Assembly: GCF_000430765.1 (NCBI RefSeq)
Contig: NZ_AUMQ01000045.1
Span: forward strand, 1 to 38,810
DNA: 38,810 nucleotides
DNA from: Peribacillus kribbensis DSM 17871
Lineage (GTDB): Bacteria; Bacillota; Bacilli; Bacillales; DSM-1321
Direction of reading: 5' to 3'
The notes below the pieces were generated by a model. The model did not search any database, was not told the origin of the DNA, and worked only from the letters and a program-made list of their open reading frames with translations. The position numbers and the translations under genes were made by a program. Shown in pieces: positions 698-1,427 of the stretch. Numbering within the stretch: the first letter of the stretch is position 1; each line of letters opens with the position of its first letter.

Positions 698-837
698 CGC
701 GGGGTGGAGCAACGAGCATTCCTTCGATGAAAAAGCATCGAGTTGTACCGATTGATCTGCTTCTTGGAGGGCTTACTGAAATCGGGACAGTCCTGGCAGG
801 GACTTAAAGCATATGCGAAAATTATACTTTTTACCGT
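698..837 (+). repeat. Truncated tRNA-fMet 5' end plus insert, copy 1
   Basis: The first 14 bases of tRNA-fMet (698-711) are followed by about 126 nt that are not tRNA. The insert can form a hairpin from TCGATG and CATCGA near 725-741, a longer-range CCGATT/AATCGG pairing (749-754 with 780-785), and AGTCC/GGACT with a six-base loop around 789-804. The unit repeats at 838 with a period of 140, and the last unit runs into the intact tRNA. No protein is evident. Confidence 0.8.
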
Positions 838-978
838 CGCGGGGTGGAGCAACGAGCATTCCTTCGATGAAAAGGCATCGAGTTGTACCGATTGAGCCGC
901 ATCTTGAGTTGCTTACTGAAATCGGGACAGTCCTGGCAGGGACTTAAAGCATATGCAGAACTTTATATTTCTTATCGT
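838..978 (+). repeat. Truncated tRNA-fMet 5' end plus insert, copy 2
   Basis: Near-identical tandem copy of the preceding unit (period 140-141). Differences cluster at 872-875, 896-910 and the AT-rich end. Bases that form the three possible pairings are kept in both copies. The unit ends at 978, directly before the intact tRNA-fMet. Confidence 0.8.
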
Positions 979-1052
979 CGCGGGGTGGAGCAGTCTGGTA
1001 GCTCGTCGGGCTCATAACCCGAAGGTCGCAGGTTCAAATCCTGTCCCCGCAA
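979..1052 (+). tRNA. tRNA-fMet, initiator (anticodon CAT)
   Basis: The body matches Bacillus initiator tRNA: C1 opposite A72 in the acceptor (CGCGGGG with CCCCGCA), the GGG/CCC anticodon stem flanking CT-CAT-AA, and T-arm GCAGGTTCAAATCCTGT. CCA is not encoded (AATAA follows), so the end must be added by CCA-transferase. It differs from its usual form in this gene position, where CCA is normally encoded. Confidence 0.93.
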
Positions 1053-1057
1053 TAAGT

Positions 1058-1198
1058 GGTCCCGTGGTGTAGCGACGAGCGACGCTGCGGTGACTCATCT
1101 GCGAGTTGTCTCGACGCATTTACTTCAGTGAGTATACTGGAAGAGGAAGAGACAGTTAAGCAGGATCTATTAGCATAACGAATTCTTATATCTAAAGT
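1058..1198 (+). repeat. Truncated tRNA-Asp 5' end plus insert
   Basis: The first 17 bases of tRNA-Asp (1058-1074) are followed by about 125 nt of non-tRNA sequence, then by the full tRNA-Asp 141 bases downstream. The insert starts ACGAGC and carries CGAGTTGT at 1102-1109, both shared with the fMet inserts, and ends in a related GCATA...TTATAT segment. A hairpin CTTCAGT / ACTGGAAG (one bulge) lies at about 1123-1143. Confidence 0.78.
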
Positions 1199-1274
1199 GG
1201 TCCCGTGGTGTAGCGGTTAACATGCCTGCCTGTCACGCAGGAGATCGCGGGTTCGATTCCCGTCGGGACCGCCA
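1199..1274 (+). tRNA. tRNA-Asp (anticodon GTC)
   Basis: A 76-nt tRNA with acceptor GGTCCCG/CGGGACC, anticodon stem CCTGC/GCAGG around CT-GTC-AC, T-arm CGGGTTCGATTCCCG and encoded CCA. Confidence 0.97.
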
Positions 1275-1279
1275 TTTAT

Positions 1280-1427
1280 GGCTCAGTAGCTCAGTCGGTA
1301 GAGCACGTTCGAGTAAGCTGTGAAGATGACTTCAGCGCACAAATCGAGCTGCTGCTTGCATAAACGTTCTGAGATTTGTGTGAAGGTAAAAGGCACCTAA
1401 TTGGTTTAGGAAACAATATATTTTTAT
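1280..1427 (+). repeat. Truncated tRNA-Phe 5' end plus insert
   Basis: The first 26 bases of tRNA-Phe (acceptor and whole D-arm, 1280-1305) are followed by about 122 nt of other sequence and then by the full gene, 148 bases downstream. The insert folds well by eye: TGAAG/CTTCA with a four-base loop (1321-1334), CACAAATC/GATTTGTG (1338-1345 with 1373-1380), and CCTAA/TTAGG with a five-base loop (1396-1410). ATCGAGCTG at 1343-1351 resembles ATCGAGTTG in the fMet inserts. Confidence 0.78.

Follow-up and report, generated by a model that had tools for sequence, protein, structure and literature searches.

A tRNA gene cluster of Peribacillus kribbensis DSM 17871 carries structured cores of about 80 nt, each of which lies within a D-arm, or next to it, in a partial tRNA copy that precedes the intact gene of the same tRNA. 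The window, i.e. the whole stretch of 38,810 nt that was analysed (contig NZ_AUMQ01000045.1), starts inside this cluster and contains four of them. Taken as a whole, we give an even chance to the reading that they are copies of a mobile, protein-free and REP-like element, which enters tRNA D-arms, is moved by a Y1 transposase, expands into arrays and is co-transcribed with the tRNAs.

Units in the window and anatomy of the core

Three tRNAs of the window (fMet, Asp and Phe) are preceded by units headed by their own 5' end, two for fMet and one each for Asp and Phe, and the intact gene then follows each set. The initial annotation had reported these units upstream of the intact genes, and both their coordinates and their periods (140, 141, 141 and 148) were reproduced. 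All features described here are on the forward strand. The cores were matched with a covariance model (CM R1) built from 20 aligned inserts, and were classified into A-, B- and C-type; these names, as well as REP1 and REP2, were coined in this analysis.

The 5' fragment of tRNA-fMet (nt 1–14) was located by sequence and repeat detection at 698–711 in unit 1 and at 838–851 in unit 2. Core 1 (A-type, ACGAGC...GGGACA, 712–789) comes after AGCA and matched CM R1 over 712–791 with 88.6 bits; the final two columns of the model (GT) already belong to the resumed tRNA, hence the core end at 789. The resumed tRNA-fMet (GTC), an AT-rich tail and a duplicated leader occupy 790–837. In unit 2, core 2 (A-type, 852–929; CM R1 match 852–931, 86.8 bits) is followed by the resumed tRNA-fMet (GTC), the tail and a leader copy (930–978), and the two fMet units are 90% identical over 136 nt. 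The intact tRNA-fMet lies at 979–1052 (979–1052 by Rfam, 978–1053 by ARAGORN). Its CCA is not encoded, and at 1043–1057 CCCCGCAAT is followed by AAGT, likewise in genome G001.

The 5' fragment of tRNA-Asp (nt 1–17, 1058–1074), which is supported by repeat detection and by the empty site in G001 (locus L009), forms a 21-nt direct repeat together with the leader AAGT. Core 3 (B-type, 1075–1154; CM R1 match 1075–1156, 75.4 bits) comes after AGCG and is followed by the resumed tRNA-Asp (GTTAA), tail and leader copy (1155–1198) and the intact tRNA-Asp (1199–1274, ARAGORN). The 5' fragment of tRNA-Phe (nt 1–26, 1280–1305; sequence and repeat detection) includes the whole D-arm. Core 4 (C-type, CGAGCTGCTGCTTG...TTCTGAG, 1306–1382) gave a weak CM match over 1305–1384 with 23.1 bits. 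The resumed tRNA-Phe (AAGG), tail and leader copy (1383–1427) were assigned by eye, and the intact tRNA-Phe is at 1428–1503 (ARAGORN). The bases upstream of each tRNA had also been reported as duplicated; consistently, the exact repeats extend into the leaders (21 nt, 1054–1074/1195–1215; 31 nt, 1275–1305/1423–1453). Further upstream, a tRNA-Ser(UGA)-like gene at 582–664 was not called by ARAGORN and scored 38 bits with the Rfam tRNA model; its 5' acceptor strand appears damaged, and it may be a pseudogene.

The inserts had been described as 122–126 nt of non-tRNA sequence. This has to be corrected, since the tRNA resumes after a core of about 78–80 nt (GTC in fMet, GTTAA in Asp and AAGG in Phe). 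The insert thus has two parts, a structured core and, after a few resumed tRNA nucleotides, an unrelated AT-rich tail. All inserts had been grouped into one family; the fMet and Asp cores scored 75–89 bits with CM R1, and the Phe core is a different subtype with 23 bits, whose first domain is different and whose second domain is similar to those of the other cores. Inserts like core 4 were found by eye before tRNA-Phe, -Lys or -Thr in L021, L056, L164, L187 and L235. An assembly error had been named as a possible source of the units. They occur on other contigs of the same genome, in L165 (a complete-genome record) and in the single-contig genome G112, so they are not an artefact of the draft assembly.

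In general, the core is about 78–84 nt long, starts with (R)ACGAGC and ends with RRCA. It follows tRNA position 13–31, within the D-arm or next to it, and AG(C/T)N usually precedes it; AG was present at -4,-3 in 37 of 51 distinct left flanks and absent in the other 14. The four nucleotides after the core matched the own tRNA at 2.98 positions on average (86 distinct units), compared with 1.33 ± 0.09 expected from other continuations (1000 permutations, maximum 1.66). The continuation of tRNA-Phe varies by species (AAGG, GAGG, ATGG, GTGG), and 8 of 10 Phe units with the junction at position 26–27 matched their own; the Phe unit of the window is outside the set used for these statistics, and other Phe units are inside it. 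Gly units were an exception, with a resumption of only 1.25 of 4 (n=8). As the tRNA resumes past the core, a simple target-site duplication flanking an element does not describe the repeat. We rejected the idea that the tail is the decayed 3' half of the same tRNA: beyond 8 nt it was no closer to its own tRNA than to others (own rank spread over 0–9, 86 units), and the own-tRNA ranks of fMet tails leaned slightly low.

Several junctions exist within one tRNA type (Lys 17, 24 and 26–27; Phe 13 and 26–27; Asn 17 and 25), and A- and B-type cores both occur before fMet, which means that subtypes are exchanged at one site. Nested cores were present in L132, L135 and L144, one in the D-arm and a second after the first. 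A third insert type (AGATTGC...GCAATC) was seen at the same D-arm site of tRNA-Phe and -Lys copies in L185, L200, L222, L259 and L265, one of them only about 34 nt long; by eye, the motif CWTC..TGAATAAGCT of both core hairpins seems to be present in it as well. A short sequence resembling GCGACGAGCAAACGAAGTGGCGCAGGAGCA recurs downstream of tRNAs of G112 (L062, L066, L067, L068) and may be a small relative of the core.

Distribution among genomes and tRNA types

The search for relatives of the inserts, proposed by the initial annotation, showed that many tRNA clusters carry them. Core matches at E ≤0.01 were found in 65 of 121 genomes (own included) and 41 of 62 genera; the other 56 genomes had no match, so the spread is patchy. 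The most matches in one genome were 37, or 51 when that genome was searched together with one other. In a sample of the phylum, 3 of 398 genomes matched at E ≤1e-4, all in the order of the window and including its own genome. Both searches used strict filters, by which weak matches are lost, and the fetched loci are part of the best matches of the 121-genome search. Further units were present in other genera and on additional contigs of the P. kribbensis genome. Ten core matches (E <1e-6) lie within about 2.4 kb in L207 (Anoxybacillus voinovskiensis).

The fMet-junction pattern was found, among the matches listed, in Neobacillus, Mesobacillus, Peribacillus, Cytobacillus, Litchfieldia, Sutcliffiella, Alkalihalobacillus, Geobacillus jurassicus, Anoxybacillus and Bacillus methanolicus PB1. 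Six of the 80 listed loci (of 119) belong to unrelated phyla (Prevotella, Pirellulales, Verrucomicrobiaceae, Aliirhizobium and two Alistipes), and these are probably chance matches.

In 40 further loci from the best-match list, 48 of the 49 cores examined had a tRNA downstream. The first 12 nt of a tRNA were copied upstream in the same spacer in 215 of 1815 tRNA contexts of the fetched loci; most of these loci were chosen for core matches, therefore the fraction is not a genome rate. Such copies are far above chance. They were observed for Met/fMet (124/237), Phe (24/114), Lys (19/62), Asn (12/91), Gly-UCC (9/74) and Asp (8/148) and for a few of Val, Ala, Thr and Arg. The core occurs before ten tRNA kinds. 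No copy was found in these loci for Glu (0/114), His (0/85), Gly-GCC (0/69), Ile (0/58), Gln (0/58), Tyr (0/54) and Trp (0/50). The loose core pattern fitted 198 of the 215 units, and each of the other 17, inspected by eye, has an insert near the D-arm (C-type, the third module or a missed core variant), so no insert-free unit was seen among the 215 by pattern and eye.

The orientation was uniform. All 145 tRNA-linked cores (of 150) are sense to the tRNA, and the remaining 5 have no tRNA within 1600 nt downstream. The intact same tRNA follows in 92 of 103 parsed core matches; the other 11 were excluded, namely 10 in which no fragment of the next tRNA could be recognised (some of these fragments are decayed) and 1 without a downstream tRNA.

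Mobility and the candidate transposase

The initial annotation had considered a small element entering tRNA D-arms while the 5' end is rebuilt. This comes close, since the core of about 80 nt is placed at or next to the D-arm in a partial copy and is also found in other repeats; as a refinement, the tRNA continues past the core. In the fetched loci of G067 and G043, cores are mostly inside dispersed repeats and not at tRNAs, with L079 (G043) as an exception that holds a tRNA-Phe-type unit. Among 11 fetched loci of G112, 5 cores are before tRNAs and 6 within a dispersed repeat. By row count, 13 copies of the G067 REP (query included) align through the core and 22 copies lack it. The junction is clean: the filled copy in L295 reads CCCCGCAGGG|core|CG and the empty copy in L313 reads CCCCGCAGGG|CG, without target duplication. 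Several insertion points occur within REPs, and the core has the same strand as the REP in 13 of 14 cases in G067 (1 not read) and the opposite strand in 6 of 6 in G112. At the tRNAs, the fMet-Asp site is empty in G001 and filled in G000, the genome of the window, by exactly 141 bp. Another structured repeat (AAGTTCGAGGAAGCG...AGCTGACGAAGA) lies before tRNA-Phe in two genera (L005, L008). A similar repeat at about 762–876 of L056 (minus strand) hosts cores in G043.

To look for a mover, gene families were compared between core-bearing and other genomes. A match to the Y1 transposase (PF01797) was obtained for 59 of the 65 genomes with cores and for 28 of the 56 others (p 6e-7, with kinship ignored), that is, 13/16 versus 6/27 inside the family of the window and 46/49 versus 22/29 outside it. 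The association may come from shared ancestry. Genes that we take to be RAYT-like, a label based on the Y1 match and characteristic features, were found in 47 of 65 core-bearing and 19 of 56 other genomes, leaving 18 of the 65 without a match. Six of the 65 have no PF01797 match; two of these, G000 (partial, E 3.8e-14) and G015, match the RAYT-like profile, and 4 of 65 have neither. Reverse transcriptase (35/65 versus 32/56), TnpB (32/65 versus 24/56) and rve integrase (58/65 versus 53/56) were not associated with the core and were rejected as movers. The 20 RAYT-like loci searched gave 0 core matches at E ≤1, and a motif scan of the same loci gave one REP1-like motif and no core pattern. No autonomous, ORF-bearing relative of the core was found. 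Judged from gene content, Y1 transposition is the likeliest candidate for the mover.

The mechanism that we propose is as follows. A single-strand Y1/HUH transposase of the IS200/RAYT kind would move the core in trans; the substrate of this enzyme would be exposed DNA rich in hairpins, for example tRNA genes and REPs. A tRNA-breaking insertion would survive when an intact copy is kept directly downstream. Recombination between adjacent tRNA 5' copies could then build tandem arrays whose inner copies stay identical. The units would be transcribed with the tRNAs, and the RNase P cut of the next tRNA would leave an RNA of about 140 nt.

The arrays were examined by counting mismatches in the last 12 nt of the 5' copy at its best placement. 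Of 21 arrays with two to four units, 6 had mismatches in the outermost 5' copy, compared with 0 of 26 inner copies, and single units showed mismatches in 14 of 98. Intact inner copies with a decayed outermost one fit recombination between neighbours that keeps the inner ones identical. A strictly conserved function of the 5' fragment was rejected, as outermost copies decay. In 1–2000 of the window the only terminator-like site, where shuffled sequence gives about 2, is at 1847–1874 after the last tRNA, suggesting that the units are probably transcribed with the tRNAs; they are putatively freed as RNAs of about 140 nt. For the second proposal of the initial annotation, in which freed RNAs of this size would act as sponges, co-transcription is thus plausible and the core helix is conserved. 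In an RNA-seq study of B. methanolicus, start sites upstream of tRNA and rRNA genes were removed (PMC4342826).

Known systems share some of these properties. IS200/IS605-type non-autonomous elements insert cleanly 3' of a short motif, make no target duplication and form hairpins. The core likewise inserts cleanly after a short motif without target duplication (L295/L313; AG in 37/51), but no full-length relative of it was found, TnpB is not associated, and it prefers tRNA copies. Tandem non-coding units, each with the 3' end of that tRNA, are present in the E. coli tyrT operon as rtT repeats. The present units are also tandem, non-coding and linked to a tRNA piece in a tRNA operon; unlike rtT, they carry the 5' end with an insert, stand before the intact gene and involve many tRNA types. 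REP/BIME sequences with RAYT are also short, non-coding, hairpin-forming and dispersed, with a genome-level link to Y1 genes. However, the core starts with ACGAGC, mostly follows AGNN, uses tRNA D-arms and is not beside RAYT-like genes. No GTAG/CGTC tag of REPs was seen by eye at the core ends in the 150-row alignment, where most rows start with ACGAGC. As neither the REP tag nor a RAYT neighbour was found, the core was not filed as a REP/RAYT element. REPs inserted inside small palindromes are described in PMC3733652. Bcr1, Bhal-1 and Bhal-2 are dispersed stem-loop repeats of about 70–170 nt in Bacillus, from a survey which masked mature tRNAs (PMC2267715); the core is similar to them in being dispersed, structured and of this size range. 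Mobile or repeat sequence candidates with covarying structures and many copies per genome, thought to be selfish and possibly structured as DNA, are reported in PMC11109978. The core is also covarying and multicopy, and in the excerpt compared, by description, no tRNA-linked motif is named.

The statement that no named family fits agrees with our Rfam 15 scan of window 1–3000 and 10 loci, in which the matches over the units were limited to tRNA and to weak ones below threshold. T-box or other riboswitches, group I/II introns and known ribozymes were rejected, with no Rfam match on the units. A T-box leader near a REP copy in L092 (1110–1355) does not overlap the core. A likeness of the second hairpin to the 5' part of B-type RNase P RNA is presumably fancied, and the Rfam scan of window 1–3000 gave no RNase P match. 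No published description of such units was recognised in the titles and abstract starts of the open-licence PMC papers listed (at most 20 of up to 463 per search). In conclusion, REP/RAYT and IS200-like non-coding elements come nearest in behaviour, and the rtT repeats in location. We regard the core as a putatively mobile, small structured repeat whose niche, the inside of partial tRNA copies, is unusual.

Conservation of the core and other explanations

Each core has two hairpin-like domains. Of the 11 pairs in the second-domain helix, 8 were changed on both sides in the first alignment and still paired in at least one row, and 84.4% of the cells pair, versus 25.6–44.0% with the partner shifted by 1–3 columns. 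In a second alignment (156 matches, 150 aligned), which was fitted to CM R1 and whose pairs were predicted afresh by RNAalifold, covarying pairs were 42–106 (UA 119, CG 28) and 44–104 (CG 75, UA 70). Compensatory changes support the main helix. The first domain is conserved in sequence, and it contains none of the 45 top-scoring column pairs. In fMet units the core identity was 0.674 (shuffled 0.462) versus 0.570 (shuffled 0.488) for the tail, calculated from 1856 pairs with core identity ≤0.85. A peptide-coding core was rejected, although the A-type consensus is readable as a short peptide: core lengths differ by 1–2 bases, and compensatory changes preserve the helix.

These data also bear on a selected function. 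The units may be a tRNA-linked non-coding RNA of about 140 nt, freed by tRNA processing and acting in trans or on the processing of the next tRNA, in which case the mobile look would come from ancient duplication and recombination. The compensatory changes in 42–106 and 44–104, the constant sense orientation, the fMet-junction pattern in many named genera among the matches listed, and a core better conserved than the tail between fMet units all agree with it. We nevertheless regard this explanation as possible but on the unlikely side, because 56 of 121 genomes have no match, cores reside in REPs away from tRNA operons, of which the same genome also has empty copies, and core subtypes swap before fMet.

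An orientation never reversed at tRNAs, together with an intact same tRNA nearly always next, is not predicted by blind transposition. One could imagine a module with the tRNA D-arm as its recognition site, which would insert there or next to it, in the sense direction only, and would at once become joined to a rebuilt intact tRNA, so that the operons would carry and export tRNA-headed structured RNAs. We hold this to be doubtful. If it were true, the D-arm would be both target and carrier.

A retroposon-like origin, with RNA copied into a tRNA nick and the 5' repeat as a variable-length target-site duplication as in LINE/SINE, would suit the varied repeat lengths (e.g. 17, 21, 31 and 44 nt) and the constant sense strand. 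It is improbable, since the resumed tRNA means that the core is not flanked by the duplication, the REP example L295/L313 has none, and reverse transcriptase is not associated (35/65 versus 32/56), with no match in G000, G001 and G002. Scars of site-specific integration by a larger element that used the tRNA as attachment site are highly improbable: tRNA fragments from integration are common according to PMC9897764, but several junctions lie inside one tRNA type (Lys, Phe, Asn), the same core sits in non-tRNA repeats, and a phage and plasmid search with one fMet unit gave no match, by which a phage or plasmid carrier was also rejected.

tRNA genes are among the most constrained sequences of a genome; nevertheless, copies of their own 5' ends with an exchangeable structured insert stand before them in many Bacillales genera. 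Whether functional or mobile, the units are missed by the tools applied here: ARAGORN skips the fragments and Rfam gives no family. If they are functional, the tRNA-headed small RNAs made by tRNA operons would be a large class that is unannotated. If the core is mobile, the filled and empty sites would be natural pairs for testing Y1-type transposition onto tRNA DNA, and the core would be a parasite that lives inside essential RNA genes without breaking them.
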